Positions 30,726-43,213 of a stretch of DNA of 47,363 nt are shown here, piece after piece (the first letter of the stretch is position 1; each line of letters opens with the position of its first letter). The stretch is from a virus, in the IMG/VR virus record IMGVR_UViG_3300028025_003037, positions 1 to 47,363 of that record. One strand, written 5' to 3'. The position numbers and the translations under genes are program-made. A model generated the notes under the pieces. That model was not told the origin of the DNA, did not search any database, and saw nothing but the letters and a program-made list of their open reading frames with translations.

Positions 30726-30735
30726 GCAGTATACT

Positions 30736-30963: not shown

Positions 30964-31806
30964 GTGCTAAAGTTTCACTACATGTTTAGAGGAAATCCCT
31001 TAGACGCTAAAGGTTTGAGGGATCTTTCTTTTCAATTAGAGTCTTTTGGGTATGAATCGGTTCTATTGACATTTCATTCAGACTCTCCAGACTATCTTGT
31101 AAAAAGTGCTGCTGCACTTGTTCCAGGACAAAAGTTAAAATATATGATTGCTCTAAGGCCATACCATATAAGCCCACAATATTGTGCCATGGTAACAGAG
31201 GCCTTTAATCAAATAGAGCCCGATAGGTTAATTTTTAACTGGATCGCTGGAGATGAAAAAAGTACCTCTGGAGAAAAACCACAGATGGATGTCTATGGAG
31301 ACACAGAAGCATTAGATAGTATAGTAAAAAGAACAACATTTTTAAGGAATTTTATTAAACAATATAATGAAATGCCAGTGATAAGTAAAAAACCAGAAAT
31401 GGTATTTAGTGGTTTTTCAGAGTATACAGTAGAGACTGCTAGAATGTTTTCTGAAACTTCTTTATCAGTTATTGATGATTACAAAAATAATATGGACAGG
31501 TTTAAAGGAATAAAAAAAATAATGGTTATGGCTACACCTGTTATACTAGAAACAGAAAAAGAAGTTGAAGATTACAAAGAGTACCTATTTAAACAAAGTT
31601 CTAGATTTCTAGATATGTCAACAATTGGTACAAGAGATAGCGTAAAAAAACAACTTCTTGAACTTGAAGAGTATGGAGTATCAGATGTTCTGATCAACAC
31701 TCACAGGTGGGACTTGTTTGGAAAAGATAGCCCGTTAAAAGAAAAAGATAATATTTTAATTAATGATTTAATTAAAGAAATAAATGAAGAGATGGGAAAA
31801 AAATGA
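30964..31806 (+). CDS. SsuD/luciferase-like flavin monooxygenase homologue A
   Basis: 280 residues, GTG start. The segment GQKLKYMIALRPYHISPQYC followed by RLIFNWIAGD is the SsuD/LLM core (in SsuD, LKFLVALRPSVTSP and LFNLVTG). The family uses FMNH2 and O2 to oxidise alkanesulfonates or aldehydes. It is about 100 residues shorter than SsuD (~380) and lacks the His at the first strand. The end overlaps the CysC-like gene by four bases, so translation is coupled. Whether it is still an enzyme is uncertain. Confidence 0.75.
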   Translation: MLKFHYMFRGNPLDAKGLRDLSFQLESFGYESVLLTFHSDSPDYLVKSAAALVPGQKLKYMIALRPYHISPQYCAMVTEAFNQIEPDRLIFNWIAGDEKSTSGEKPQMDVYGDTEALDSIVKRTTFLRNFIKQYNEMPVISKKPEMVFSGFSEYTVETARMFSETSLSVIDDYKNNMDRFKGIKKIMVMATPVILETEKEVEDYKEYLFKQSSRFLDMSTIGTRDSVKKQLLELEEYGVSDVLINTHRWDLFGKDSPLKEKDNILINDLIKEINEEMGKK

Positions 31807-32561
31807 TTATTCAGATTATAGGTCTGCCAGGTGCAGGCAAGACAGAGTTAGCCAAGGCACTCAAAGAAAGAATTAACGCTATTCATCTTAATGCAGATGA
31901 GGTTCGTGCAACAGTAAACTCAGACCTAGGCTTTAGCCCTGAAGACAGAATTGAGCAGGCACGGCGCATGGGAGATATGGCTCGCCTTATCTCTAAGCAA
32001 GGTGTTGCTCCAGTAATTGTTGACTTTGTATGCCCAACAGACTTGACTCGTGCAGCATTTGGCAAGCCAGATATTTTAGTTTGGGTAGACAGAATTGAGT
32101 CTGGAAGATTTGAAGATACAAACAAGATGTGGGAAGATCCAGAGTCCTGCGATGTCCGAATCCCTTGTGGTATGACAGTAGAAGAAGAGGCTGATTTAAT
32201 CATTGCTGCTTGCCAGTTACACGATTGGACAGCCCCTACAACCCTTATGCTGGGCAGATATCAGCCATGGCATGAAGGACACCACGCCCTTTACAAAGAG
32301 GCAGGTAAGAGAACAGAGCAGGTTTTGCTGGGAGTTCGTAATACCTATAATACCAGTGAGAAAGATCCACTTAAGTTTGATCAGGTAAAAGAATATATTG
32401 CCAAGGACGACTTTATGGATGGTGCATTAGTACTAAGACTACCTAACATTACTAACATCGTATACGGTAGAGATGTAGGATACAAGATTGAACAAGTAGA
32501 TTTGGGGGCAGACATTCATGCTATTTCGGCTACTGAAAAACGCAAGCAGTTGGGTCTTTAA
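31803..32561 (+). CDS. APS kinase-like / nucleotidyltransferase fusion
   Basis: 252 residues. Residues 1-140 resemble CysC: Walker A GLPGAGKT (7-14), ADEVRATVNSDLGFSPEDR (31-49) and VIVDFVCPTD. Residues 146-252 form an HxGH-type nucleotidyltransferase: GRYQPWHEGHH (151-161), YGRDVG and ISATEKR (241-247). NMNAT and ATP sulfurylase both share these motifs. CysC makes PAPS from APS, and the second domain could supply an adenylate. It may be a small PAPS-synthase-like enzyme or a nucleotide/NAD enzyme; the sequence alone does not decide. Confidence 0.75.
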   Translation: MIIQIIGLPGAGKTELAKALKERINAIHLNADEVRATVNSDLGFSPEDRIEQARRMGDMARLISKQGVAPVIVDFVCPTDLTRAAFGKPDILVWVDRIESGRFEDTNKMWEDPESCDVRIPCGMTVEEEADLIIAACQLHDWTAPTTLMLGRYQPWHEGHHALYKEAGKRTEQVLLGVRNTYNTSEKDPLKFDQVKEYIAKDDFMDGALVLRLPNITNIVYGRDVGYKIEQVDLGADIHAISATEKRKQLGL

Positions 32562-32646
32562 TTATTTAGAAGAGTCTGGTCGCTTAATGAACGAAGCAGA
32601 AGAGCGAATAATGTTTGGAGACAAAGATGAGCGTAAAGAAAAGTAG
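32518..32646 (+). CDS. Possible small overlapping protein
   Basis: 42 residues from ATG 32518 in another frame, covering the 65-base gap between the CysC-like gene and the DUF2061 gene and overlapping both. The product is helical and acidic (LEESGRLMNEAEERIMFG). A run of five G lies before the ATG. It may be spurious. Confidence 0.3.
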   Translation: MLFRLLKNASSWVFNYLEESGRLMNEAEERIMFGDKDERKEK

Positions 32647-32830
32647 ATCACTTGTTAAGTCTTTAACATGGAGAGTTGTCGCAATGGTTTCAGGGTTTGT
32701 AACTCTTTATGCTTTGAGCGAAGATATTAGTCTGGCTACTATTGCTACACTAATAACCAATGGGGTTAACTTTGTGGCATACTATTATCATGAAAGAATT
32801 TGGAATGCTGTTGGGTGGGGCAAAGAATGA
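32627..32830 (+). CDS. DUF2061 family membrane protein (copy 2)
   Basis: 67 residues from ATG 32627 with GGAG six bases upstream. KKSRSLVKSLTWRVVAMVSG, two spans, and YYHERIWNAVGWG are the DUF2061 pattern. It overlaps copy 3 (ATGA overlap at 32827), so the two are made together and may pair. Confidence 0.85.
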   Translation: MSVKKSRSLVKSLTWRVVAMVSGFVTLYALSEDISLATIATLITNGVNFVAYYYHERIWNAVGWGKE

Positions 32831-33030
32831 AAGTAACCAAAACAAGATCATTTGTTAAGGCATTAAGTTATCGCATATGGGGAACACTTTCCTCTGTTGC
32901 TGTTGCCTATGTCATAACAAGAAATACTGCTCTTTCTGTAACGATTGCGTTTTGGGAAACGGTAGTTAAAATATTCATCTACTACGCACATGAGCGTGGA
33001 TGGAACTATATACAATGGGGGAGAAAGTAA
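32827..33030 (+). CDS. DUF2061 family membrane protein (copy 3)
   Basis: 67 residues from ATG 32827. TKTRSFVKALSYRIWGTLSS and YYAHERGWNYIQWG match copy 2, with clear divergence. Two membrane spans. The next gene (nuclease) starts in its stop codon. Function unknown. Confidence 0.85.
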   Translation: MKVTKTRSFVKALSYRIWGTLSSVAVAYVITRNTALSVTIAFWETVVKIFIYYAHERGWNYIQWGRK

Positions 33031-33437
33031 TGTTTGAATATTATGTAAAGAAAGTAACAAAGGTCGTTGATGGAGATACCATCGATGTCGATATTGATTT
33101 AGGGTTTGACATTTCTTTTAGTTCTAGAGTGAGACTGGCTGGTATCGACACGCCTGAGTCTCGCACAGCAGACAAGGCTGAAAAGGCTTTAGGACTGGAA
33201 GCAAAGGCTTATTTGAAGGCTGCTATTGACAGTGCTAAGTCTGTAGTCATCAAGACAGAGAAGATGGACTCTTCGGAGAAGTATGGTCGTATTCTTGGCT
33301 GGGTATACCTTGATGGAGATACAGAGTCTATCAATGACAAGATGATTAATGATGGTCATGCTTGGGGCTATATGGGGGAAACAAAGATCAAAGATTTTCA
33401 AGCACTTGCAAAGGCTAGAAAGATTTCTGGAAAGTGA
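33030..33437 (+). CDS. Staphylococcal nuclease-like protein (SNase)
   Basis: 135 residues from ATG 33030. The key residues fall at the same numbers as in staphylococcal nuclease: Asp21, Arg35, Asp40, Thr41, Glu43 (RLAGIDTPE) and Arg87 (KYGR). There is no signal peptide, so it would act in the cytoplasm, for example on host DNA or RNA. The next gene starts at GTG inside its stop region. Confidence 0.9.
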   Translation: MFEYYVKKVTKVVDGDTIDVDIDLGFDISFSSRVRLAGIDTPESRTADKAEKALGLEAKAYLKAAIDSAKSVVIKTEKMDSSEKYGRILGWVYLDGDTESINDKMINDGHAWGYMGETKIKDFQALAKARKISGK

Positions 33438-34060
33438 TCACAAAAAATATTTTAGAAAAAAATGTATACTATTATGAAAATGTTATACAAGATCCTTTAA
33501 AGTTGGTTGAGGATATAGAAAAAATAGATCACCTATTAACAGATAAAACTGGAATTTCTAAATGGTTCAAGTGGGCAGCATATCAGTCTACATATGTATT
33601 TGGAAAACAAAAGATGATAAGAGAACATCTTTTTGATAAAAATCATGAAGCATATAGCCAATGTAGGGACATAGAAAAGCAAATAACTGATGCAATACTC
33701 TATGCATCAAAAGACTATGAGTCTTTTCATACTGGACTTAGTATTGGTTTGCTATGTCCAATATCAATAAGCAAATATTCTGTTGGAGGTGAGATGGGCA
33801 AACATACAGACACCTATGATGACGATAAGTCAAGAACTATCTCTGTTGTTCTTTATTTAAATGACGACTACACTGGTGGTGAGATTGAATTTGAAGATCA
33901 AGGTATTTTTATAAAGCCAACTGCTGGAAGCATTATGGTGTTCCCATCAAGGAAGCCTTACTTCCATGCTTCAAAGCCAGTTCTCTCAGGAGAAAAGTAT
34001 ATTGTTCCAGGGTTCTGGGAAAATAGAGTTGAGTTTCAGACTGGATGGCAAAATGGATGA
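33434..34060 (+). CDS. 2OG-Fe(II) oxygenase
   Basis: 208 residues from a GTG that overlaps the SNase stop. His124-x-Asp126 (KHTD), His178 (YFHAS) and Lys188 form the metal and 2OG site; LYLNDDYTGGEIEF lies between. It differs from the terminase-linked copy in the N-terminal half, so substrates may differ. It ends overlapping the next gene by eight bases. Confidence 0.85.
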   Translation: MITKNILEKNVYYYENVIQDPLKLVEDIEKIDHLLTDKTGISKWFKWAAYQSTYVFGKQKMIREHLFDKNHEAYSQCRDIEKQITDAILYASKDYESFHTGLSIGLLCPISISKYSVGGEMGKHTDTYDDDKSRTISVVLYLNDDYTGGEIEFEDQGIFIKPTAGSIMVFPSRKPYFHASKPVLSGEKYIVPGFWENRVEFQTGWQNG

Positions 34061-34382
34061 GTTTGATGAAATAGACAGGCTTATCCTTAACGGATGTTTG
34101 GAGGTTGCAGGGATAGATATTGAAACTGGGGAACCATTGTACAACTTTACAGAAAAATTAATTGAAGTAAATCCACAACTTCACGAAGAAATATCAAGAT
34201 ATTTTTCTAACGAAGCAATGTCGTTGTGGAGTGAAGGATTTTTAGACATGGATGTGACAGAAAAAAATCCAATGGTAAGCCTTACACCAAAGGCATTGAA
34301 TGAAGAAGAGGTTGCAAAACTAACTAAAGATAAACAGTACACGCTAAAAGAGATCATGCGTGTTATTGGTTTAGATAGGTAG
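34053..34382 (+). CDS. Acidic protein, unknown function
   Basis: 109 residues from ATG 34053. It is largely helical and acidic at the start (MDEFDEIDRL). No motif is recognised. It is translationally coupled to the oxygenase upstream. Confidence 0.5.
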   Translation: MDEFDEIDRLILNGCLEVAGIDIETGEPLYNFTEKLIEVNPQLHEEISRYFSNEAMSLWSEGFLDMDVTEKNPMVSLTPKALNEEEVAKLTKDKQYTLKEIMRVIGLDR

Positions 34383-34388
34383 TATAAT
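34383..34388 (+). promoter_or_regulatory. -10 promoter element
   Basis: TATAAT right after the preceding stop and fifteen bases before the ATG at 34404, with GGAGGA between. No clear -35 or TG extension. Confidence 0.4.
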
Positions 34389-34403
34389 TGTTGTGGAGGA
34401 ACT

Positions 34404-34823
34404 ATGGAATATTTTCTTGGATCTGCAATAACTATGATAGCCATGTTCGTAACAACACGGCTAATTTCTTCCCAAAAAACAAACATTAAAAAGAATGATT
34501 TTGTATATAGACAAAGCCATATACATGAAATCATTTCTCCATTAATACCATACATGATGCCACATAAAAAAGAAATAGTTAGACAGTCCAGCAACCATGA
34601 AGAAAAAACAAACATAAAGGTTGTTATTTTTGACAACAAGGCCTATTTTGTTAAGGATGGTACATTTTATTGTGCAGAAATGCACGGTACAGATATAGAT
34701 GGGGCCAACGCAACCCTAGTTGACACGATGGCTATGGATAAGGTACAATTAGATAAGATGCTGTTTATAATGGATCAACTTAGAGATGGGAAGAAAAATG
34801 ATAGTGGGGATTCAAGGAACTAG
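34404..34823 (+). CDS. Membrane-anchored protein, unknown function
   Basis: 139 residues with a GTGGAGGA SD. The first ~22 residues form one membrane span; the rest is cytoplasmic, basic and then acidic. It contains the segment IKVVIFDNKAYFVKDGTFYC, a beta-rich region. Not assigned. It overlaps the next gene by 26 bases. Confidence 0.5.
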   Translation: MEYFLGSAITMIAMFVTTRLISSQKTNIKKNDFVYRQSHIHEIISPLIPYMMPHKKEIVRQSSNHEEKTNIKVVIFDNKAYFVKDGTFYCAEMHGTDIDGANATLVDTMAMDKVQLDKMLFIMDQLRDGKKNDSGDSRN

Positions 34824-35148
34824 TAGTTTTGATGACTACCAGGTTTTTCTTAGAGCCATGGCCGTTACGATGTCTTCTTTAAAAGAAGGTGATCCGTACT
34901 TCTATCTCTATTCTGCAGGACCAGCCAATATTAACTTAATGGCTATGGAGTTTGCTAATCTGTCAGAGAGAGGTCTTAAGGCTCGTGGTAAAAGTATTAA
35001 GTATAAGGCTGTGCCACCTTCGTGGATTACAGAAAATATTTTAGATATAAACTACTTTGCTTTTTTAAGTAAGGAAAGAGAACAGGTGTCAAAACTTGTT
35101 GACGATGCAAAAACAAATAATGTCGAATACGGCATTTTTAGGTACTAG
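34798..35148 (+). CDS. Possible SLOG/DUF2493-like nucleotide-binding protein
   Basis: 116 residues from ATG 34798. It begins MIVGIQGTSSFDDYQVFLRAM, a Rossmann-type start with G-x-(Q/R)-x-F-x-D-Y similar to the small SLOG proteins found in many phages. YLYSAGPANINLMAMEFANL would follow as the second strand-helix unit. Tentative. Confidence 0.4.
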   Translation: MIVGIQGTSSFDDYQVFLRAMAVTMSSLKEGDPYFYLYSAGPANINLMAMEFANLSERGLKARGKSIKYKAVPPSWITENILDINYFAFLSKEREQVSKLVDDAKTNNVEYGIFRY

Positions 35149-35157
35149 GAGATCATA

Positions 35158-35367
35158 ATGGAAATCAAGTCATTAGAACAAATGGAAACAATTGTTAAGA
35201 ATAACAAGGGTTTGGTATGGGATGGGTGGACAGTAGTTAATTCTTATCCTTCTGAGAAGGGTAGAACAGCCCCACAAGGGGCATTCGTGGATGGTAAATG
35301 GCATCTGCAGCGTCGCTTTGTACCTTCTAAGAATGGATGGGATATACCAGACAAGTTTGTGAGTTAA
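35158..35367 (+). CDS. Conserved small protein, unknown function
   Basis: 69 residues with GGAGA upstream. Trp-rich (VWDGWTVVNSY and GWDIP) and basic, with no cysteine. Similar small proteins occur near WhiB genes in actinophages, but no function is known to me. Confidence 0.55.
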   Translation: MEIKSLEQMETIVKNNKGLVWDGWTVVNSYPSEKGRTAPQGAFVDGKWHLQRRFVPSKNGWDIPDKFVS

Positions 35368-35368
35368 T

Positions 35369-35653
35369 ATGCCAAAGCACGAATGGAAAGATGATGCTTT
35401 GTGTTTAGATTACGACACAAATATATTCTTTGAAAAGTATGAAGATGATGAACTTCTAAGACCTGCAGTAGACAAACTTTGTTCTATGTGTCCAGTGTCT
35501 AAGATGTGTTTTGCTGTTGGTGTTTCACAAAAAGAGTGGGGTATCTGGGGTGGAGTTTATCTCGAAGGTGGACAAATATCTAAAGAGTTTTCAAAACATA
35601 AGTCTAAAACAGACTGGGCAAATACTTGGCAAAGACTAACAACGGAGCAATAA
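35369..35653 (+). CDS. WhiB-family transcription regulator
   Basis: 94 residues. Cys12, Cys38, Cys41 and Cys47 (C-x2-C-x5-C) bind a [4Fe-4S] cluster; EWGIWGG (56-62) is the WhiB turn. The family is essentially limited to Actinobacteria and their phages, where it works with sigma factor A. This is the best marker of the host group. A phage WhiB may redirect host transcription or mimic the host protein. Confidence 0.9.
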   Translation: MPKHEWKDDALCLDYDTNIFFEKYEDDELLRPAVDKLCSMCPVSKMCFAVGVSQKEWGIWGGVYLEGGQISKEFSKHKSKTDWANTWQRLTTEQ

Positions 35654-35654
35654 T

Positions 35655-35891
35655 ATGTATACAGATTCAATGAGACGAGCCTTTCGATCACTTAGGGGAC
35701 CAAAAGGATTTGAACTTCAAATAGTTGATAATGACAACTTCTTGACTGTAAAAGCAAGTGAGAAGCAGTTTATGAGTCTTTCTGGAGAAGAAAGAAAACA
35801 GGCTGTAGAGTATATGGTTCGTGCAAAAAAAGCACTTGAGGATAATGGTGCGATTGTTTTGTTGGTTAGAGAGGGTGGGGAAGAATTGTGA
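35655..35891 (+). CDS. Small protein, unknown function
   Basis: 78 residues, mixed alpha/beta, basic start (RRAFRSLRGPKG). No motif. It is followed by a GTG-started membrane gene that overlaps by four bases. Confidence 0.5.
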   Translation: MYTDSMRRAFRSLRGPKGFELQIVDNDNFLTVKASEKQFMSLSGEERKQAVEYMVRAKKALEDNGAIVLLVREGGEEL

Positions 35892-36313
35892 TAGAGTTAA
35901 TTTCATTTTCTATTTTTATTATTTTGTTCTTTATGTTAATTTTTAACAATGTTAGATTAAACATAAAGTTGTCTGAACTTAGGCTTGAAGTTATAAAGGC
36001 TTACCTAGAAAAAACAATCGTATCTGAAAAGTTAATAGAAATATCTGAAGAAAAAAATAAAAAAGACGACTATTCATCTGAAGCATTCTTAAAATTTATT
36101 TCAGATTCTAGAGACTGGGCATATCAGTATATAGATGAAGTTCAAGAAGGAATAAATAAGTTTGTTACTGATATTGAGCCTGAAATATCATACTTTGATG
36201 AGTATGGCGCAGTTGGTTCTGCGTATCCTCACTACCACTCTATGAAGAAAATTTCTGGGGCATATAAAGAACTAAAGAAACTGATACCAGAAGACTATGA
36301 TAGAATAGAGTAA
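35888..36313 (+). CDS. Membrane-anchored coiled-coil protein
   Basis: 141 residues from GTG 35888. A strongly hydrophobic N-terminus (ISFSIFIILFFMLIF) anchors a helical, charged domain. The C-terminal half ends in Tyr/Glu-rich sequence. It resembles small phage membrane proteins with a cytoplasmic coiled coil, such as spanin-like or Rz-like proteins, but no such assignment is made. Confidence 0.5.
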   Translation: MIELISFSIFIILFFMLIFNNVRLNIKLSELRLEVIKAYLEKTIVSEKLIEISEEKNKKDDYSSEAFLKFISDSRDWAYQYIDEVQEGINKFVTDIEPEISYFDEYGAVGSAYPHYHSMKKISGAYKELKKLIPEDYDRIE

Positions 36314-36462
36314 TGATCGTACTTAAATCAACTAAAAATCTTAACATGTTTATATGTGAAGAAGAGTTGTGCCAAGATGAAAGCACAAAAGTTTGGGCAA
36401 ATTCTGAGAGCAGAATCGCAGACCTTTGCGATTTCCATTATTCTGAGGCAAGTAAGCCATGA
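36313..36462 (+). CDS. Small cysteine-containing protein
   Basis: 49 residues in the TAATG overlap. C15, C20 and the C-x2-H near the end (LCDFHY) could form a zinc site. It is coupled to the second SsuD-like gene by a four-base overlap. Confidence 0.5.
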   Translation: MIVLKSTKNLNMFICEEELCQDESTKVWANSESRIADLCDFHYSEASKP

Positions 36463-37253
36463 ATTTTTTTTGGTTTGAAAGATCAAATTCTTATGATATA
36501 AAAGAAATATCTTTAGAGTTAGAAAAATCTGGTTTTTATGGGGTTCTTTTGGTGTACTCGTTTTATAGTGATGATCAATTTGTAAAAATAGCAAATGCAA
36601 TAGATGTAAATCAAAAAATAAAATATATGGTTGCCATAAGACCTCATGTTATATCTCCACAATATTTGTCTATGATAAACAATTCATTTCAAAAAATATC
36701 AAAAGACAGAATCATAATTAATTTTATAACTGGTTGGATATCGGAATATGACAAACAGGTGGGTGGAATTCAAGGTGAAGTAAATGACCTTTCTTCAAAC
36801 CTAGAAAGATCTGAGAACTTGGTAGAATATTTAAAGGTTTTAAAAAATACCGCTGGAGAAACACCAAACTTTTATGTGTCTGTTACTAATCCTATTTTAC
36901 TGGAAAAGGTTTCTGGCGATAAAGTTATTATTCCATACCAGTCATACAAGCAAAACAATTTTAGCACTAATGATTCAAGCAAAATAATGATCTATATTTC
37001 TCCAGTAATAAGAAAAACAAGAGAAGAACTTTTACCACTGATAGAAAAAAATACAAGAAGTGATGTTCAGCACTTTACCTTTGATGAGTTTGAAGCATTA
37101 TTAAACGAATTAAAAAATAAAAATATAAACAATATTTTAATGGACGAAGCAGAACCCAACGAATATATAGAAAAAAAGCACACGCTAAGTTTTGTTAGTT
37201 ATTTTACTAACAAAGAAACAAATATCCTAGGAGGAAAAAATGACACACCATAA
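36459..37253 (+). CDS. SsuD/luciferase-like flavin monooxygenase homologue B
   Basis: 264 residues. MNFFWFERSNSYD starts like SsuD strand 1; KIKYMVAIRPHVISPQYLSM and RIIINFITGW follow. SsuD has His at the position of Asn10 here. It is shorter than SsuD and lacks the long insertion and C-terminal helices. Lys/Asn-rich stretches indicate relaxed composition. It shares the core with homologues A and C, so one ancestral gene has probably been copied within the genome. Confidence 0.75.
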   Translation: MNFFWFERSNSYDIKEISLELEKSGFYGVLLVYSFYSDDQFVKIANAIDVNQKIKYMVAIRPHVISPQYLSMINNSFQKISKDRIIINFITGWISEYDKQVGGIQGEVNDLSSNLERSENLVEYLKVLKNTAGETPNFYVSVTNPILLEKVSGDKVIIPYQSYKQNNFSTNDSSKIMIYISPVIRKTREELLPLIEKNTRSDVQHFTFDEFEALLNELKNKNINNILMDEAEPNEYIEKKHTLSFVSYFTNKETNILGGKNDTP

Positions 37254-37557
37254 CGAAACAAACTCACAGATCAAGGCAGCACTTGCATCATACGGACGCT
37301 CAGTCCTTGGTGCAGCAACAGCGATGTATGCATCTGGAGTTACAGATCCGCAGACACTAGCATACTCACTACTTGGAGCACTTGTGCCCGTAGTATTAAG
37401 AGCAGCCAACCCTAATGACAAGGCATTTGGAAAGATGCCTTCAGTAGATGAGGTAGACGCAGCAGTTAAGTCTGCAAAGGTAGTAAAGAAGACCGCTAAG
37501 AAGGCTCCTGCAAAGAAGTCATCAGGCGGAGGCAAGACAACCAATCAAGTAAAATAA
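37240..37557 (+). CDS. Holin-like membrane protein
   Basis: 105 residues with a GGAGG upstream. A hydrophobic region of ~40 residues (SVLGAATAMYASGV then AYSLLGALVPVVL) is followed by AANPNDKAFG and a Lys/Ala-rich tail with GGG. This layout is typical of actinophage holins. With the genes at 27253 and 27462 the phage seems to carry three holin-like proteins. Confidence 0.55.
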   Translation: MTHHNETNSQIKAALASYGRSVLGAATAMYASGVTDPQTLAYSLLGALVPVVLRAANPNDKAFGKMPSVDEVDAAVKSAKVVKKTAKKAPAKKSSGGGKTTNQVK

Positions 37558-37558
37558 T

Positions 37559-37577
37559 ATAGTATAATTTATACTAT
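37559..37577 (+). promoter_or_regulatory. Promoter within a palindrome
   Basis: ATAGTATA, three bases, TATACTAT: an eight-base inverted repeat covering TATAAT (37563-37568). It may be an operator or a promoter that can fire both ways. It would drive the structured RNA downstream. Confidence 0.5.
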
Positions 37578-37695
37578 TCCGATCTAAGACTTTAAAAGGT
37601 TTTACAACGGATGCTCTTATGAGAAGAGAGTTAGCAGGAGTCGAACCTTCGTGGCTAATAGACCTGAGCAGTCGTCTATAAACTGCTCATTTCTT
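37575..37695 (+). ncRNA. Candidate structured RNA upstream of hsp20
   Basis: A gene-free stretch with several hairpins: CTCTT/AAGAG at 37614-37628, TTAGC/GCTAA enclosing AGG/CCT at 37631-37658, and GAGCAGT/ACTGCTC at 37666-37688 followed by ATTTCTT, a weak terminator-like end. A promoter precedes it and a separate extended -10 follows. No known class is recognised; the ends are estimates. Confidence 0.4.
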
Positions 37696-37696
37696 A

Positions 37697-37705
37697 TGCT
37701 ATAAT
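37697..37705 (+). promoter_or_regulatory. Extended -10 promoter for hsp20
   Basis: TGCTATAAT, giving a 5' leader of about 50 bases before the hsp20 ATG at 37763. Confidence 0.6.
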
Positions 37706-37738
37706 ATTAATACCTGCCCAAATGGGGGGTAAATTAAC

Positions 37739-37761
37739 TTATTCGCTTGAAAGGGGAATAA
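37739..37761 (+). promoter_or_regulatory. Candidate hairpin over hsp20 ribosome-binding site
   Basis: TTATTC (37739-37744) pairs with GAATAA (37756-37761), putting the SD AAGGGG (37751-37756) in the loop and closing base. Such hairpins act as RNA thermometers in front of many small heat-shock genes. A second hairpin (TACC...GGTA, about 37711-37731) lies upstream. The six-pair stem is short and AT-rich. Confidence 0.4.
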
Positions 37762-37762
37762 C

Positions 37763-38167
37763 ATGGTAAAAACAGCACTGGATCTTTTTAATGATCCATT
37801 TTTCAATACCTTCTCAAATTTTCAGAAGGTAACAACAACAACAAACTATCCACCTTATAACCAAATCAAACTAAATGATACAGAGTATATTCTTTCATTT
37901 GCCTTGGCTGGGTTCTCTAAGGATGATGTCTCAGTGTCGCTAGACAATCGCAAACTTACAATCAAGGGCGAGAAGCAGGATGCTGAGTTACCAGAGGGTG
38001 CGGAGTATCTACATAAGGGCATTGCTGCTCGTAAGTTTACTGATATCTTTACCCTTCCTGAGTTTGTTGAGGTAGTTGGGGCTGAGTTTAAGGATGGTAT
38101 CTTAGATATCAGACTTGAAAAGCAGATCCCAGAAGACAAACTGCCAAAAACAATCGCAATTAAGTAG
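37763..38167 (+). CDS. Small heat-shock protein (Hsp20/alpha-crystallin)
   Basis: 134 residues. The alpha-crystallin domain runs from about 33 to 122 (YILSFALAGFSKDDVSVSLD and LTIKGEK), then GAEFKDGILDIRLEK, with a C-terminal I-x-I (TIAIK) used for oligomer contacts. It is an ATP-independent holdase. Phage Hsp20 proteins are known from aquatic phages and may aid capsid assembly. Confidence 0.9.
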   Translation: MVKTALDLFNDPFFNTFSNFQKVTTTTNYPPYNQIKLNDTEYILSFALAGFSKDDVSVSLDNRKLTIKGEKQDAELPEGAEYLHKGIAARKFTDIFTLPEFVEVVGAEFKDGILDIRLEKQIPEDKLPKTIAIK

Positions 38168-38181
38168 TACAATATAAATGT

Positions 38182-38263
38182 CCCCACACAGGACCTTAGT
38201 GATGGATTAGTTACCCATTGGATAGAGACCGTGGCGCAAGTCAGGTGAATTGCCTGTGTGGGG
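38182..38263 (+). ncRNA. Candidate structured RNA closed by 11-bp stem
   Basis: CCCCACACAGG (38182-38192) pairs perfectly with CCTGTGTGGGG (38253-38263). Inside are ATGG/CCAT around 38202-38218 and an ACC/GGT stem containing GGC-GCAA-GTC, a GNRA tetraloop. The three-way junction looks like a folded RNA and is not read as a tRNA. It lies between hsp20 and an HNH gene. The RNA class is unknown. Confidence 0.55.
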
Positions 38264-38278
38264 CTTAATATTTGGCGG

Positions 38279-38284
38279 TATACT
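38279..38284 (+). promoter_or_regulatory. -10 element before HNH gene
   Basis: TATACT, seven bases before the ATG at 38292; a near-leaderless start. It lies just after the 3' arm of the structured RNA. Confidence 0.5.
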
Positions 38285-38291
38285 TAGATTA

Positions 38292-38561
38292 ATGACTGAC
38301 AAAGAGTTAGACCATTATAATAAGCAGCAGTATAAAAAGATGCTTGCTAAAATAAAAGAAGATTCTGGCTGTGTAGATTGTGGTGTTGGTAACCATATAA
38401 TTTTAGACTTTGATCACATAAGAGACAAAAAATATAACATATCTAGAATGATCCACGATGGGTTTTCATGGAAGGCTATTAAGAAAGAGATAGAAAAGTG
38501 TGAGGTGGTTTGTGCCAACTGCCACAGAATAAGAACACACAACAGACTTAATGAGCAGTAG
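38292..38561 (+). CDS. HNH endonuclease
   Basis: 89 residues from ATG 38292. CVDCG, then LDFDHIRDKK (the first His of HNH) and CEVVCANCHRIRTHNR supply the C-x2-C...D-H...C-x2-C...H pattern of small HNH nucleases. It may be a free-standing homing enzyme. It converges with the oxygenase gene downstream. Confidence 0.8.
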   Translation: MTDKELDHYNKQQYKKMLAKIKEDSGCVDCGVGNHIILDFDHIRDKKYNISRMIHDGFSWKAIKKEIEKCEVVCANCHRIRTHNRLNEQ

Positions 38562-38575
38562 TATTTATTACTTAA

Positions 38576-39151
38576 CTATCTAGTCCACCAAGAAAGACTA
38601 TATCGTGTTGTCTTCATAACCTCATTAACACCATGCTCATATTCTTTATTGCCTGGATGCATTACGAGAGACAAAGGCTTTGGCTTAATAGATAAACCCT
38701 TTTGAGGATAGAATATTTCTCCGCCTTCATAATCATCATTTAAATAAACAACAAACCCATGAGTTATTATTTTTTCTAATGGATTATATTGAGGATGATC
38801 TGGGTGAATTTCATCTGTGTGAACGCCAAGACCTGGACCTATTCTTCTAGAAACAGAGTTTATTGGTAGATAGTAGAACTCAGAAATCCCATACTCGCTA
38901 GAAAATATAGGCTTTGATCTATCCTGAAGCATATACATAAAATCATTATATTCTTTATATTTTTCTTTTAGATTAATTGAGTCAATTCTTAGTTGATTGC
39001 CATACCATTCTTTTAGACCAGATCCATCGTTGGACCCATCCCAAAGTTTTGGATCCTCTGTGGCCAGAGCAAGAACATAGTCTGCTTCAGCCTGTGTTAA
39101 AAAGTCTTCAACTACTACAATTTCGTTGTCAAAAGGTCTTATTATATTCAT
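38576..39151 (-). CDS. 2OG-Fe(II) oxygenase
   Basis: 191 residues from ATG 39151 (a longer GTG start at 39166 would overlap the promoter). His111-x-Asp113 (VHTDE), His173 (YEHG) and Arg183 form the active site, with VVYLNDDYEGGEIFYP between. The -10 TATAAT lies exactly six bases before the ATG, so the mRNA is probably leaderless. Confidence 0.85.
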   Translation of the reverse strand: MNIIRPFDNEIVVVEDFLTQAEADYVLALATEDPKLWDGSNDGSGLKEWYGNQLRIDSINLKEKYKEYNDFMYMLQDRSKPIFSSEYGISEFYYLPINSVSRRIGPGLGVHTDEIHPDHPQYNPLEKIITHGFVVYLNDDYEGGEIFYPQKGLSIKPKPLSLVMHPGNKEYEHGVNEVMKTTRYSLSWWTR

Positions 39152-39157
39152 ACAACC

Positions 39158-39193
39158 ATTATACACTATATAAGATTATGGTATACTGGATAT
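39158..39193. promoter_or_regulatory. Divergent leaderless promoters
   Basis: On the - strand TATAAT (39163-39158) stands six bases before ATG 39151. On the + strand TGG-TATACT (39182-39187) stands six bases before ATG 39194. The sequence GGTATACTGGATATATG (39180-39196) recurs exactly, inverted, at 44340-44324. Confidence 0.75.
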
Positions 39194-40072
39194 ATGTTAA
39201 AAGAAGGCGACTTTGTTATGGGATCAACCTCTGAGGGGGTTGTGCATGGTGTTATAGAGCACATTATGATAGAAGGCGGAGTATACGGAGTTCCTGGAAC
39301 AGAGTATGCAATCCAGTCGATGCCACCAGATAACCCAGCAATGGCTGTTAGAATTTACGAACAAGAAGATGGTGAGTGGGAGCCAACAGCGTACAGTATT
39401 GGTATGATGTATCAAGACGCTACAAAAGTAGAAATGGAAACAAACACAATGGATTCAGAAACAGAAATGGCTATGTTTGATGCACAAATAGGCAAGACAG
39501 ATGATTCAATGATGCCAACAAATACCTATCAAAGCAACAAGCAGGCACCGTGCTGGGATGGATATGTACAGCGTGGAATGAAGCCAGGAGCAGACGGAGG
39601 TCCAGTTCCTAACTGTGTTCCTGCTGCAAAAGCAGATGATCTATTTGAAGATGACGACACAGTTGAATACGATACAGACACAGTATCAAAGGCTGAAGGT
39701 TACTCTCCACCAGCAGGAGCAAGATCTGCTGCTCGTAGAGCAATTAAGTTTAAAGAAGATGGAAAGGCTAATGGTGCAGGAACTGCAGTTGGCTGGACTC
39801 GTGCAGGGCAGTTAGCAAGAGGAGAATCAATCTCTCTAAGTACTGTTAAGAGAATGTACTCATACTTCTCACGACATGAAGTAGACAAGAAGGGCAAGGA
39901 CTGGGGTAACTCAGAAAACCCATCTAACGGATACATAATGTGGCTTGCATGGGGTGGAGACGCAGGCTATTCATGGTCAAGAGGAATTGCTAATCGTGAA
40001 AGAGACAAGTCTCTGTTTGCTGATTTTGGTAAAGATTACACAAAAGTACAAACAGAAAGACACTCACTATAA
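39194..40072 (+). CDS. Phage structural-region protein with conserved C-terminal domain
   Basis: 292 residues. The N-terminal ~80 residues are beta-rich (GDFVMGSTSEGVVHGVIEHI). An acidic linker follows. The last ~120 residues (GYSPPAGARSAARRAIKF, VGWTRAGQLARG, MYSYFSRHEVDKKGKDW, WLAWGGDAGYSW) match a domain found in many phage proteins near prohead protease and portal genes; its function is unknown. The head genes are not in view, so a structural role is tentative. Confidence 0.6.
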   Translation: MLKEGDFVMGSTSEGVVHGVIEHIMIEGGVYGVPGTEYAIQSMPPDNPAMAVRIYEQEDGEWEPTAYSIGMMYQDATKVEMETNTMDSETEMAMFDAQIGKTDDSMMPTNTYQSNKQAPCWDGYVQRGMKPGADGGPVPNCVPAAKADDLFEDDDTVEYDTDTVSKAEGYSPPAGARSAARRAIKFKEDGKANGAGTAVGWTRAGQLARGESISLSTVKRMYSYFSRHEVDKKGKDWGNSENPSNGYIMWLAWGGDAGYSWSRGIANRERDKSLFADFGKDYTKVQTERHSL

Positions 40073-40200
40073 TGCCAAAGAAAAAAGCATCAGCATTTAA
40101 TCCTGTTCAGATCAAAGATGGCTGGATTGTTAGACTATATAAAGATGGACGAGTAAAGTCTAAGATAGCACCATACGAACCAAAACATCCTACAAAGTAA
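40072..40200 (+). CDS. Small basic protein
   Basis: 42 residues in the TAATG overlap, starting PKKKASAFNP. Basic, one beta hairpin likely (WIVRLYKDGRVKSKI). It meets the tRNA cluster tail to tail. No function recognised. Confidence 0.5.
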   Translation: MPKKKASAFNPVQIKDGWIVRLYKDGRVKSKIAPYEPKHPTK

Positions 40201-40202
40201 AG

Positions 40203-40274
40203 CACCCCTGGCAGGAATCGAACCTGCGACAAACGGATTAGAAGTCCGCTACTCTTCCGCTGAGTTACAGAGGT
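40203..40274 (-). tRNA. tRNA-Arg (anticodon TCT)
   Basis: Cloverleaf with acceptor ACCTCTG/CAGGGGT, anticodon stem with loop CTTCTAA and T arm GCAGG-TTCGATT-CCTGC. It reads AGA/AGG codons, which are frequent in this genome but often rare in Actinobacteria. No encoded CCA. Confidence 0.9.
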
Positions 40275-40278
40275 ATTG

Positions 40279-40351
40279 TATCTCCAACGGAATTCGAATC
40301 CGTGTTGCTGCCGTGAAAGGGCAGAGTCCTAGGCCACTAGACGATGAAGAC
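40279..40351 (-). tRNA. tRNA-Glu (anticodon TTC)
   Basis: Acceptor GTCTTCA/TGGAGAT with wobble pairs, anticodon stem CTGCC/GGCAG with loop CTTTCAC, and T arm ACGGA-TTCGAAT-TCCGT. It reads GAA/GAG codons. It is four bases from the tRNA-Arg, so the cluster is probably one transcript. Confidence 0.88.
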
Positions 40352-40355
40352 TTAG

Positions 40356-40429
40356 TACATCTGGAAGGACTTGAACCTTCGGCTCTCTGCATATAAGGCA
40401 GGTACTCTAACCAACTGAGTTACAGATGT
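40356..40429 (-). tRNA. tRNA-Ile (anticodon TAT)
   Basis: Acceptor ACATCTG/CAGATGT is fully paired; loop CTTATAT places anticodon TAT, and T arm GAAGG-TTCAAGT-CCTTC. It reads AUA, a codon used often here (for example near gene starts) and commonly rare in bacterial hosts. This fits codon compensation. Confidence 0.88.
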
Positions 40430-40433
40430 GTAG

Positions 40434-40508
40434 TACACCAGGTAGGACTTGAACCTACGAATAACCGAATTATGAGTTCGGGGCCTTAACCAACTTGGCT
40501 ACTGGTGC
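40434..40508 (-). tRNA. tRNA-Met (anticodon CAT)
   Basis: Acceptor GCACCAG/CTGGTGT begins with a G-U pair; anticodon stem CCGAA/TTCGG with loop CTCATAA; T arm GTAGG-TTCAAGT-CCTAC. The CAT anticodon could be elongator Met or, if the C is lysidinylated, Ile for AUA. The initiator features (mismatched first pair and three G-C pairs) are absent, so initiator tRNA is unlikely. Confidence 0.85.
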
Positions 40509-40514
40509 TAGACC

Positions 40515-40658
40515 TTATGATACTAGTATGCCAAGAAGCATTCCAATTATGAAACATAGTGTTCCAACTGTCCAGTGATAATATGTTTTCATATGCTCTT
40601 TGATAATATAACGCTTTAAATCTTTTGATATTTTTTCAAACTCTTTATTGTATGTCAT
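40515..40658 (-). CDS. Small membrane protein
   Basis: 47 residues: a cytoplasmic charged start (TYNKEFEKISKDLKRY) and one membrane span at the C-terminus (TVGTLCFIIGMLLGILV). TTGACA, a 17-base spacer and TATACT lie upstream, with exactly six bases to the ATG. It ends a few bases before the tRNA cluster, which may be on the same transcript. Confidence 0.65.
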   Translation of the reverse strand: MTYNKEFEKISKDLKRYIIKEHMKTYYHWTVGTLCFIIGMLLGILVS

Positions 40659-40664
40659 ATACTA

Positions 40665-40693
40665 AGTATATCAAAAAGAATTACCATTGTCAA
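40665..40693 (-). promoter_or_regulatory. Consensus promoter, leaderless start
   Basis: TTGACA (40693-40688), 17 bases, TATACT (40670-40665), then six bases to ATG 40658. The -35 overlaps the last codons of the CDGSH gene. This promoter may also drive the tRNA genes. Confidence 0.8.
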
Positions 40694-40821
40694 TTCTTGT
40701 CTGTGTTTTTTAAATCAACACTGTCTTTTGTTTCGTCTGCAGGGTTTTTGACTATCTTATCATTGTGAGTGCCATCACAATATGGATATATTTTTGATCT
40801 ACCACAGGTACATTGTCTCAT
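40690..40821 (-). CDS. CDGSH iron-sulfur domain protein
   Basis: 43 residues. CTCGRSKIYPYCDGTH matches the C-x-C-x2-S-x3-P-x-C-D-G-(S/T)-H signature in full; the three Cys and one His hold a [2Fe-2S] cluster as in mitoNEET. The tail is short and charged. It is one of the smallest CDGSH proteins one could expect. It may transfer electrons or clusters, perhaps to the oxygenases encoded nearby. It is very rarely noted in phages. The start is fixed by a strong promoter. Confidence 0.8.
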   Translation of the reverse strand: MRQCTCGRSKIYPYCDGTHNDKIVKNPADETKDSVDLKNTDKN

Positions 40822-40827
40822 TATTTA

Positions 40828-40856
40828 ATTGTATCACATGCGAAACAACTAGTCAA
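40828..40856 (-). promoter_or_regulatory. Promoter, leaderless start
   Basis: TTGACT (40856-40851), a 17-base spacer, TACAAT (40833-40828), then six bases to ATG 40821. Confidence 0.8.
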
Positions 40857-40870
40857 GGTGTATTTTTTAT

Positions 40871-41530
40871 TTAGTACTTATTGTTTTCGTAAAAATCTTT
40901 TGTCTTAATAAATCCAACAACAACATATCTCATTGGTCCATCTTTAACAAAATTTACACCATGATGAAACTCTTCTGAGCCTGGGAATATTACCAGGGTT
41001 CCTGGTTTTGGTTTTAGTGTTACATTAATTTTATCAAAGAACAATTCTCCACCAACATAGTCATCATTTAGGTATAGGATAGCAGCGTACTGAATGGATG
41101 GGTCCGTATCCTGGTCCGTATGAGCATACAGTTGAACACCAGCATACATTCTTTGTAATATGTTAGTGCCGTTTACTATTAAATTTGGATCTGCCATTTG
41201 AATAATGCTAACTATTTTATCGTCTATCTTTTTTGTAACATAATGATCTGAAATAGCAAGATTTTTATCTGTCCAGTTTTGAGTAATTTGCAATTTACCC
41301 TCTGCAACAAGATTGTCTATGTCATCTCTTCCATGCTTAAGTTTTGCAAATGCTTTTAAATTGTTTAGATAAATTTGTCCCCACTGCTCTTCAGTAGTGT
41401 TATTGATAACATCAAACAAACTATCTATATCTTCTTTAGATATGAAGTTTTCTATTGAAAGTATCCCGTTTGACACTTCCTCAAACTTTATTCCAAGTTC
41501 AGTTAACTCTTTAGAAAAAAATGTACTCAT
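40871..41530 (-). CDS. 2OG-Fe(II) oxygenase
   Basis: 219 residues. His137-x-Asp139 (AHTDQD), His190 (EEFHHG) and Arg201; LYLNDDYVGGELFF lies between. The N-terminal 130 residues are a long helical extension unlike the other three copies. An extended -10 (TGGTATCAT) stands six bases before the ATG. Confidence 0.85.
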   Translation of the reverse strand: MSTFFSKELTELGIKFEEVSNGILSIENFISKEDIDSLFDVINNTTEEQWGQIYLNNLKAFAKLKHGRDDIDNLVAEGKLQITQNWTDKNLAISDHYVTKKIDDKIVSIIQMADPNLIVNGTNILQRMYAGVQLYAHTDQDTDPSIQYAAILYLNDDYVGGELFFDKINVTLKPKPGTLVIFPGSEEFHHGVNFVKDGPMRYVVVGFIKTKDFYENNKY

Positions 41531-41536
41531 ATACTA

Positions 41537-41545
41537 ATGATACCA
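41537..41545 (-). promoter_or_regulatory. Extended -10 promoter, leaderless start
   Basis: TGG-TATCAT with exactly six bases to ATG 41530; no -35 visible. Confidence 0.65.
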
Positions 41546-41557
41546 CATATTGAAATA

Positions 41558-42016
41558 TTAGGATTTATCCCCATCCCATGTCCCAATTTTGGTTGTAGAA
41601 ATCCCGTACTCTTCCCAAAGTCTTATAACATTTGGGTTATCATCTACAGCATGCAGGACATTCCAGTGTTTTTTAATCTTAAGTAATATATCTTTTTTAA
41701 CTTCATAGTCTGGCCTATTGTCTTCATCGCTACGCATATAAAGTGCATGGTGACCAATATCATTTTTAGCAAGCCAAAGCGAAGTTAGTCCACGCCAAAC
41801 CTCCTTCCTTGATGTAACAATAAGAATATGCATCTGATCAAAGAAGGCTTCGTTCACCATTTGAATTACTTCAAAGTTTGGCAGGGCATCGATAGAGGCC
41901 TCATGAAAAGCATTGTAGTCCCTATTGGAGCCACGAACAAGGTGAAGATAAGGATCTACATTGGCCAATGTTCCGTCTACATCAAATATGTATGCTCTAG
42001 GCTTAATCTTGATCAA
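41558..42016 (-). CDS. HAD-family polynucleotide 3'-phosphatase-like protein
   Basis: 152 residues, probable TTG start at 42016. Motif I FDVDGTLA (Asp12, Asp14), motif II VTSR, a Lys near 108 and AVDDNPNVIRLW (125-133) match HAD phosphatases. LYMRSDEDNRPDYEVKKDIL resembles the phosphatase half of T4 polynucleotide kinase (PseT). The kinase half is absent, so it might act alone on 3'-phosphate ends of RNA or DNA. It lies near four tRNA genes; tRNA repair is a possibility. Confidence 0.75.
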   Translation of the reverse strand: MIKIKPRAYIFDVDGTLANVDPYLHLVRGSNRDYNAFHEASIDALPNFEVIQMVNEAFFDQMHILIVTSRKEVWRGLTSLWLAKNDIGHHALYMRSDEDNRPDYEVKKDILLKIKKHWNVLHAVDDNPNVIRLWEEYGISTTKIGTWDGDKS

Positions 42017-42095
42017 CCTTATATGTCATTATAAAGTAGCATAGTGAATACCCAACAATAATAGATGCTGGAATTAAAAACAAAATTTCAATCAT
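42003..42095 (-). CDS. Tiny membrane peptide
   Basis: 30 residues with a strong AGGAGG SD. One membrane span (ILFLIPASIIVGYSLCYFIM) and a charged end. It overlaps the genes on both sides (4 and 14 bases). The strong SD argues it is real. Confidence 0.55.
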   Translation of the reverse strand: MIEILFLIPASIIVGYSLCYFIMTYKVDQD

Positions 42096-42265
42096 TCGAA
42101 GTCCTCCTGTCTTTCAAACATAGTTGTCATATAATTATCTTCTCCTCTTGCAATCTTTGCTGCAAGCATTCTCATACCAACTGCGTTGGTTACTGACTCT
42201 TCTATTGGAAGAGCCTCAATAGCCCTTGCAATTTCTTCTCTCAATGCCATTTCGTCTATACTCAT
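42092..42265 (-). CDS. Small helical protein
   Basis: 57 residues. It is acidic and helical (MALREEIARAIEAL), with Met/Arg-rich helices after. It overlaps its neighbours by four bases on each side and so forms an operon of three to four tiny genes. Unknown. Confidence 0.55.
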   Translation of the reverse strand: MSIDEMALREEIARAIEALPIEESVTNAVGMRMLAAKIARGEDNYMTTMFERQEDFE

Positions 42266-42405
42266 AGTTTAGCCACCAACTTGGATGCCATTTTAAGCCC
42301 CTTGACTAGTCCATCATGATAGTCCTGATTTTTAATAACCTTGGTAGTATCCCAAATACGATAGGATTCTTGATCTAGTAGTTGTGCTATTTCTTGATTA
42401 GTCAT
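42262..42405 (-). CDS. Small helical protein, leaderless
   Basis: 47 residues. The promoter TTGACA-17-TATAAT (42440-42412) is perfect and six bases separate the -10 from the ATG. The product is helical with a conserved-looking start NQEIAQLLDQESY. It is first in an operon leading to the HAD phosphatase. Confidence 0.6.
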   Translation of the reverse strand: MTNQEIAQLLDQESYRIWDTTKVIKNQDYHDGLVKGLKMASKLVAKL

Positions 42406-42411
42406 ATTTCT

Positions 42412-42440
42412 ATTATACAGTTAGTTGCTGTCTTTGTCAA
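42412..42440 (-). promoter_or_regulatory. Perfect consensus promoter, leaderless start
   Basis: TTGACA (42440-42435), exactly 17 bases, TATAAT (42417-42412), then six bases to ATG 42405. This is the strongest promoter in the window. Confidence 0.85.
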
Positions 42441-43213
42441 GTAAAAAGATTTTTGTTATCTTTAACAAAATTAACTATCTTAATTCTATACTCTTCAGGC
42501 CAGTAACAATAAAACATCACACCTTCTATTCCATCTAACTTTAATTCGTTAATGATTTCTTTTAACTCCAAAGTTGTTGTTAATCTTATATCAGATCCAA
42601 GTTCTTTGCTGTTTTTTAATTTATTAAATTTTTCTTCATCATCTTCTATAAGTGGAAACATAGATAAAACTCTTGGTTTTGATATTTTTTTGTACTTAGC
42701 CACTTCAGCATGTGACTGGTATGCTGCAAAACTGTAGTCTCCATAGTTCTCAACAAGGGAGTTCATATCATCACCTTTACCAGATATGCATATCTTTGTT
42801 TCTATTTTTAACTTTTTACAAAAATCAAAGAAGATTGGTATATAGTTTTTTAAATATTCTCTTCTTTCATAAAGGCTGGATGTATCATTTATCTCACCGA
42901 TTATCCCGCCCATACTTTTTTCTTCATCTAAAATTTGCCCAGACACAAAATTAATCCAAACCCTGCCAACATCTATAGAGTTTAATGATTTAATTATCAT
43001 TCCAAGATTTTGTGGAGAAATTGTGTAAGGTCTGACTGCAACAATGTAAGTAAAATTCTGATCACTTTTAAGTGATCTGGCTATCTGTACAAAATAATCT
43101 CCAACATCTGACCCATATGGCAAAAGGATTCCGCTGAAGCCATTGCTTTCTAAATCTAAAGACATTTCAGAAAGATTATTGTTGTGAGTTCTTCCAAACC
43201 AATAAACATTCAT
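42437..43213 (-). CDS. SsuD/luciferase-like flavin monooxygenase homologue C
   Basis: 258 residues. MNVYWFGRTHNNN lines up with the SsuD start MFWFLPTHGDG, keeping the His that in SsuD lies in the active site; this is the only copy of the three that does. YIVAVRPYTISPQNLGM and RVWINFVSGQ follow. Like the other copies it is ~120 residues shorter than SsuD. It follows a chain of very small genes on this strand. Confidence 0.78.
   Translation of the reverse strand: MNVYWFGRTHNNNLSEMSLDLESNGFSGILLPYGSDVGDYFVQIARSLKSDQNFTYIVAVRPYTISPQNLGMIIKSLNSIDVGRVWINFVSGQILDEEKSMGGIIGEINDTSSLYERREYLKNYIPIFFDFCKKLKIETKICISGKGDDMNSLVENYGDYSFAAYQSHAEVAKYKKISKPRVLSMFPLIEDDEEKFNKLKNSKELGSDIRLTTTLELKEIINELKLDGIEGVMFYCYWPEEYRIKIVNFVKDNKNLFT

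Follow-up and report, generated by a model that had tools for sequence, protein, structure and literature searches.

Lid-less luciferase-like proteins of phages share a genomic slot with 2-oxoglutarate- and Fe(II)-dependent oxygenases

The viral record IMGVR_UViG_3300028025_003037 of the IMG/VR database comprises 47,363 nucleotides (nt), which were analysed over their whole length and are referred to here as the window. It contains three genes for luciferase-like barrel proteins: P0001 (30964..31806, + strand, 280 amino acids, GTG start), P0002 (36459..37253, + strand, 264 amino acids) and P0003 (42437..43213, - strand, 258 amino acids), which occupy the loci termed slots A, B and C, respectively. 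The strongest new fact about this phage family is that slot B, located directly behind a gene termed c2, is common to its members and to 2-oxoglutarate (2OG)- and Fe(II)-dependent oxygenases. We tentatively propose that the family consists of lid-less flavin oxygenases of the group C luciferase-like type that probably stand in for 2OG hydroxylases, a reading of sequence features to which we assign slightly less than an even chance. No description of the phage family, its tandem pairs or the slot was found in the literature searched; the fold and the name 'Luciferase-like' of two members were already known.

In the window, slot B is bounded upstream by c2 (35888..36313, + strand), which encodes a 141 amino acid protein with a hydrophobic N-terminus and a conserved C-terminal domain that reached no Pfam family above the cut-off. 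Its downstream edge is c6 (37240..37557, + strand), encoding a small protein with a Lys-rich end and no match in a Pfam search; c6 overlaps the end of P0002. Between c2 and P0002, an open reading frame of 49 amino acids (36313..36462, + strand) with a C-x4-C ... C-x2-H pattern, read from the sequence, shares 1 nt with c2 and 4 nt with P0002. A survey of IMG/VR for c2, in which the best 80 of at least 541 confirmed relatives were kept, yielded 57 loci that are distinct by the identity of the last 80 residues of c2. Slot B is empty in 22 of them, holds only family members in 21, only 2OG oxygenase genes in 12 and both in two; a cruder earlier tally of the same c2 loci had counted 60 distinct loci, 25 with and 35 without a luciferase-like gene. 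Almost all same-strand genes of at least 80 amino acids in the slot (59 of 60) belong to one of the two enzyme types, the exception being a DUF6065 protein in locus L156. The 2OG label was assigned by a hidden Markov model seeded with genes of the slot and of the window; as a check, the four 2OG genes of the window, one of them outside the seeds, match PF13640, as do all four of the slot genes put to Pfam, which belong to L176 and L182 (E values of 7e-14 to 6.2e-13).

Genes of both types are frequently arranged in tandem. The 21 loci with only luciferase-like genes comprise 14 single genes and 7 pairs, and the 12 loci with only 2OG genes comprise 9 pairs, 2 triples and 1 single gene. Overlaps of 1 or 4 nt with c2 are found for 31 of 80 luciferase-like genes directly behind it (near-copies included), while in the two cases examined the tandem 2OG genes are 3 nt apart and the first overlaps c2 by 4 nt. 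Among 12 distinct tandem luciferase-like pairs, the partners overlap by 1-4 nt in six and are spaced by 6-7 nt in five; the start is uncertain in one (L107). Such adjacent same-strand pairs are a feature of relatives; in the window, the three copies lie far apart. On the c2 tree, the four slot states require 25 changes (shuffled mean 27.3) and the starred branches force at least seven for each enzyme type; exchange of the slot contents thus seems frequent, on a weak tree. In slot C, a same-strand 2OG gene is present within three genes of the family member in five of eight distinct members; two of the eight belong to the window phage or to a close relative of it. The DUF6065 protein of L156 (5280-6011; PF19541, E value 1e-59) is encoded directly after a tandem luciferase-like pair, and a 231 amino acid gene without Pfam match (L119, 2818-3513) directly precedes the slot-C members in L119 and L124. 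These two proteins look unrelated, their likeness being very weak (23.9 bits), and provide a weak lead to a possible third partner. A reading of the luciferase-like genes as part of a glycosyltransferase island was rejected, because such genes, named by eye behind c6 in some relatives, lie outside the slot and none is present in the mapped part of the window.

Support for an enzymatic role comes from the predicted fold and the active site. AlphaFold models were calculated from family alignments for P0001 (44 rows, an earlier set) and P0002 (52 rows), and both display the eight strands of a triosephosphate isomerase (TIM) barrel, with a mean predicted local distance difference test (pLDDT) of 88.3 and 90.3, respectively. 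The P0001 model is closest in the PDB to SfnG (Z 22.2), RutA (21.9), MsuD (21.8) and SsuD (21.4), with 260 residues aligned to 8t0u (Z 22.2, root mean square deviation (rmsd) 3.3). For the P0002 model, MsuD and SfnG (Z 20.3) are followed by SsuD (19.5) and RutA (18.8), F420-dependent enzymes being level at 19.9; 246 residues align to 7jv3 (Z 20.2, rmsd 3.3), and the luciferase structure 1luc reaches Z 18.8. P0001 and P0002 are thus predicted luciferase/SsuD-fold barrels, to which P0003 is assigned via its 35% identity to P0002. The original prediction, made from the DNA sequence alone, had recognised the three genes by a shared SsuD-like core, and this core holds: all three frames translate without internal stops, and little or no variation is seen in the Ala, Arg-Pro, Ser-Pro-Gln and Asn...Gly columns among 52 members, the set used for the residue counts and for the family tree (138 family proteins reduced at 90% identity). 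Neither outcome named beforehand as refuting the prediction, a fold other than a TIM barrel or a lack of significant luciferase-family profile matches for at least two of the three proteins, was observed. According to the excerpted text of a study on MsuD (PMC8234197), from which the residue roles are taken, A75, R77, N104 and G108 belong to the isoalloxazine/O2 pocket. The corresponding columns contain Ala in 52/52 members, Arg in 51/52 (one Lys), Asn in 52/52 and Gly in 51/52, and they are kept in upstream and downstream tandem partners alike.

The opposite holds for the sulfonate site. The column of the sulfonate-binding R225 of MsuD in strand 7 contains Arg in none of the 52 members and Ala or Ser in 41, and the lid together with the sulfonate loop carrying R296 falls into a gap in 52/52 members when these are aligned to E. 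coli SsuD; this C-terminal mapping is based on one sequence alignment and on strand-order matching, not on superposed coordinates. Replacing either sulfonate-binding Arg of MsuD by Ala left no measurable sulfite, as stated in the same excerpts (PMC8234197). At the end of strand 6, Tyr160 is present in 49/52 members and may take the place of the flavin-stacking Trp195, the column being ambiguous since the SsuD alignment has a gap at this position. A His directly following the first strand, thought earlier to be retained only by the minus-strand copy, is indeed confined to P0003 among the three; it is not conserved across the family, and P0001 has a His within the strand.

In the proposed reaction, reduced flavin mononucleotide (FMN) from a host reductase would bind to the barrel at its C-terminal face, and O2 would there be activated as N5-peroxyflavin by the conserved pocket of Ala, Arg and Asn. 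The substrate, which would differ from a sulfonate held in the manner of SsuD, would undergo oxidation in this open pocket; without a lid, the pocket should be accessible to a bulky or protein-bound substrate. Because the same slot behind c2 holds either luciferase-like or 2OG genes, often in tandem, both oxygenases probably perform interchangeable hydroxylation-type steps during infection, which is the least certain step of the proposal. As 2OG oxygenases often hydroxylate their substrates, their alternation with the family suggests a product alike. The tandem luciferase-like pairs might in addition form heterodimers similar to LuxAB.

Several observations weigh against this proposal. All 13 c2 query rows were taken from contigs that carry the family, which possibly biased the survey towards such loci. 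The c2 tree is weakly resolved (of its 54 inner branches, 17 are starred), and the clustering of the slot labels on it does not exceed that of many shuffles, 39 of 200 being as low. The shared slot may be a mere insertion hotspot; 22 of the 57 c2 loci hold neither enzyme. In slot C, a 2OG gene on the same strand is missing from the three-gene neighbourhood of three of the eight members (one has a gene on the opposite strand, two have none). Concerning the pocket, the P0001 clade (3/52) has Ile at the conserved Tyr position. The comparison of FMN-binding residues, which stood for the A75, R77 and N104 columns, is inconsistent for the FMN-phosphate residues H123, R126 and Y127 of MsuD, where the loop length differs; an Arg/Lys near this loop is kept in 52/52 members, not aligned with R126. 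Finally, none of the seven phage records of 90-119 kb, which are possibly incomplete, contains a flavin reductase of family PF03358 or PF01613, while control searches gave a match in 13 of 14 genomes for each family. The reduced flavin would therefore have to come from the host or from a reductase of another family.

Among the alternatives, neutral cargo at an insertion hotspot survives best, although we still regard it as unlikely. That the two enzyme types alternate would then be uninformative about a shared role, in line with the many empty slots and with the abundance of 2OG genes elsewhere in these phages: counting near-copies, they account for 111 of 876 genes of at least 150 amino acids in the loci retrieved, and for four genes in the window. 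A neutral site would, however, be expected to contain a mixture of genes rather than two types almost exclusively, and the genes that overlap c2 suggest that it is transcribed and translated with them as a single unit. If the alternation does reflect a shared task, it would point to a new modification step that depends on O2, in phages whose hosts are probably actinobacteria, and c2, the tandem barrels and the tandem 2OG genes would constitute a short list of candidates. An extended version of the proposal, which we consider doubtful, is an exchangeable cassette, in which paired luciferase-like or 2OG oxygenases behind the probably membrane-anchored c2 would make the same modification of the host envelope or the virion. 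If true, phages would possess a modification system in which two non-homologous chemistries solve the same problem.

Less probable still is a flavin-fold protein without catalytic activity, which would serve as sensor, decoy or scaffold by binding a ligand or a host protein, comparable to LuxF. The loss of the lid and of the substrate residues, the short length, the tandem pairs and the lack of the two tested reductase families in the seven records would all fit such a function. On the other hand, the O2/isoalloxazine pocket is near-invariant in both tandem partners, which goes beyond the needs of binding, and the alternation with 2OG oxygenases also speaks for catalysis.

The original prediction had considered reduced enzymes for organosulfur use on the one hand and flavin-fold proteins with a new role on the other. 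A role in sulfur scavenging now appears improbable. It would involve an SsuD-like desulfonation for the host, 2OG oxygenases as counterparts similar to TauD, and a separate contribution to sulfate assimilation by a gene behind P0001 (31803..32561, + strand). This gene overlaps P0001 by 4 nt and encodes an adenosine 5'-phosphosulfate (APS)-kinase-like P-loop domain (PF01583, E value 5.4e-15) followed by a weak cytidylyltransferase-like domain (PF01467, below the cut-off). It matches the APS-kinase domain of 3'-phosphoadenosine 5'-phosphosulfate (PAPS) synthetase with an E value of 6.6e-10, and is possibly a small PAPS-synthetase-like fusion. Upstream, P0001 is abutted by a gene for a small zinc-ribbon-like DUF7455 protein (30691..30963, + strand; PF24254, E value 1.6e-15). 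With Pfam names taken from the window genes, a DUF7455-like neighbour directly precedes the slot-A member in all seven distinct rows, two of which belong to the window phage or to a close relative of it; directly downstream follow the APS-kinase-like gene in five rows, a family member in one (L107) and a gene for a staphylococcal nuclease (SNase)-type nuclease in one (L108). That SsuD provides the best profile also favours sulfur scavenging, as do freshwater phages with cysC/cysH and the naming of ssuD and tauD as viral auxiliary genes, each in the excerpted portions of the respective reports (PMC10914622, PMC9636769, PMC9469726). This reading is weakened because the lid is absent in 52/52 members, as are the two Arg positions that bind the sulfonate in MsuD (excerpts of PMC8234197). 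Furthermore, the tested 2OG genes match PF13640 best, with the TauD family not among the listed matches, and the reductase families PF03358 and PF01613 are missing from the seven records. A possible link to sulfur is left at one gene, the APS-kinase-like gene overlapping the end of P0001, and the new role is the better fit. Of the original prediction, the fold, the paralogy and the flavin-pocket core are supported. Surveys based on profiles could label genes of this family ssuD and assign them to viral sulfur metabolism, against which the lack of the sulfonate site argues.

A gene for a WhiB-like protein (35369..35653, + strand; PF02467, E value 1.3e-10) makes an actinobacterial host probable, whiB being described as an actinophage marker in the excerpted text of PMC6802176. 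An F420-dependent reductase or dehydrogenase that uses F420 of such a host instead of FMN is nevertheless very unlikely: KvPepI is close in structure (Z 19.9-20.9) and its solved chains are nearly as short (269-276 residues), with Mer and FGD1 also among the structural matches, but the profiles favour SsuD, then SfnG and RutA, without any F420 family among the matches, and MsuD/SfnG rank first or level in the structural comparison.

The assignment of the three window genes rests on profile, predicted model and the ratio of nonsynonymous to synonymous substitution rates (dN/dS) for P0001, on profiles and predicted model for P0002, and on profile and sequence matches for P0003. The NCBIfam profile of SsuD, TIGR03565, matches all three within residues 14-131 (E values of 4.2e-9, 2.7e-13 and 9.5e-10 for P0001, P0002 and P0003, respectively), with 35.9, 49.7 and 38.0 bits, far below the equivalog cut-off of 518 bits. 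With PF00296, P0001, P0002 and P0003 score 20.9, 29.0 and 21.5 bits against a cut-off of 27.9, which only P0002 passes; in a PF00296 search across the window's own record, P0003 was the sole scorer. A search of PHROGs gave no match for P0001 and P0003 and two weak matches for P0002 (E values of 0.1-0.2), and weak side matches to NPV_P10 (P0002, residues 90-129) and to centrins (P0003, residues 155-229) were not used. The stated shortening by 100-120 residues agrees with 101-123 residues relative to E. coli SsuD (381 amino acids). The proteins resemble each other with 35% identity over 245 amino acids for P0002 and P0003 (E value 5e-38, 121 bits), 30% over 204 for P0001 and P0002 (3e-24, 85.5 bits) and 35% over 118 for P0001 and P0003 (8e-22, 79 bits). 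The matches of P0001 and P0003, which were the two searched, to SsuD/MsuD entries of the PDB are lower (23-33 bits). Towards the nearest relatives, dN/dS is 0.04 for P0001, 0.07-0.08 for P0002 and 0.08 for P0003 (one comparison), and it rises to 0.14-0.24 in more distant pairs, the range for P0001 being 0.04-0.19. All three genes are under purifying selection; they are therefore maintained and do not represent chance frames. The C-terminal tail of P0002, TNILGGKNDTP (37225-37253), is near-identical in the distant members L042 and L056; its codons contain AGGAGG just ahead of the start codon of c6, and the tail may therefore be conserved as the ribosome-binding site of c6.

In the 52-member tree, P0001 groups with two other members (support 100/100), P0003 with two (99/84, its long branch making the position unsure) and P0002 with two (100/99). 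These three separate clades, and the neighbours common to the loci of each, support the earlier view that the copies are diverged paralogues from old duplications. Seven records of 90-119 kb contain three copies in one case, two in one and a single copy in five, with surplus matches that are second pieces of one gene not counted; all three copies are found in a 111.9 kb record. The family amounts to 227 confirmed places in IMG/VR, obtained from 244 pattern stretches in a scan with a seven-row alignment, and the best 80 of the 227 were kept. Rows of both alignments begin at the match start or the nearest start codon, so that a few may miss or gain N-terminal residues. Among 84,980 bacterial and archaeal species, 13 stretches were found with the seven-row and nine with the 52-row alignment, none of which was confirmed, although the short-pattern method may miss distant kin. 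Within the sensitivity of this pattern scan, the family is so far virus-only.

Named phages gave only distant matches to P0001 and P0002, the two proteins searched, with 24-33% identity and a coverage of the query of 51% or less. They were obtained for Pseudomonas phage Y15 and for four records of Acinetobacter phage MD-2021a, the latter with genes annotated ssuD; none of the five was counted as a member. We take as members two proteins of uncultured Caudovirales phages, A0A6J7WQ01 and A0A6J7WN64, which are named 'Luciferase-like domain containing protein' in BFVD/UniProt and match the P0002 model over the full length (33% identity, E value 2.2e-19, and 23%, 3.0e-17, respectively); a literature search found nothing in print about them. 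The assertion that no such phage set had been described is correct within the listings and excerpts of the full-text literature searched, in which the family, its tandem pairs and the c2 slot were not found, but it has to be qualified by these two named entries and by ssuD being listed among viral organosulfur auxiliary genes in the excerpts of PMC9636769. Viral tauD is discussed in those of PMC9469726, and the excerpts of PMC11849493, which concern ammonia-oxidising archaea, mention two virus contigs with oxidoreductase genes of the F420-dependent luciferase-like and the NAD(P)-dependent type.

Comparison with known systems further delimits the family. It shares the TIM barrel, the Ala/Arg/Asn/Gly pocket and the best sequence profile with SsuD/MsuD, but differs by its shorter chain, by the absence of the lid and of both sulfonate-binding Arg, by scores far below the cut-off and by the lack of a flavin reductase of the two families. 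SfnG, a dimethylsulfone monooxygenase, and RutA are the top structural matches of the P0001 model, but their profile matches to the phage proteins are weaker, partial or not listed. LuxA/LuxB belong to the same fold superfamily and likewise derive from adjacent duplicated genes, with heterodimer formation being possible for the phage pairs; LuxB, however, is catalytically silent, whereas both phage tandem partners keep the pocket residues. LuxF is a shortened luciferase-like flavoprotein that lost barrel elements, unlike the phage models, which keep eight strands. The PF13640 oxygenases share the slot and the tandem arrangement, but have an unrelated fold and cofactor. As small barrels without a lid, the phage proteins could be useful for flavin-enzyme work.

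The four PF13640 genes of the window are located at 21541..22074 (+ strand, E value 3.1e-17), 33434..34060 (+, 9.2e-15), 38576..39166 (-, 1.9e-8) and 40871..41530 (-, 9.4e-12), the last one on the same strand as P0003 and separated from it by two listed genes. Between the latter and P0003, 41558-42016 encodes a PNKP-type HAD phosphatase domain (PF25109, E value 1.9e-21). Most larger open reading frames between about 40100 and 46900 are on the minus strand; the GC skew changes sign near 40 kb, and four tRNA genes (40202-40508) adjoin this strand switch. A proteasome-subunit-like protein is encoded at 27824-28348 in this WhiB-bearing phage (PF00227, E value 8.4e-7, above the cut-off), and a 639 amino acid protein at 25332-27251 combines a PA14 domain with a Pro-Glu-Thr repeat tract, with an antisense frame of 247 amino acids also open. 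In relatives, PstS-like phosphate-binding proteins were recognised by eye in L008 (6084-7118) and, behind an HSP20-like gene, in L183 and L195.

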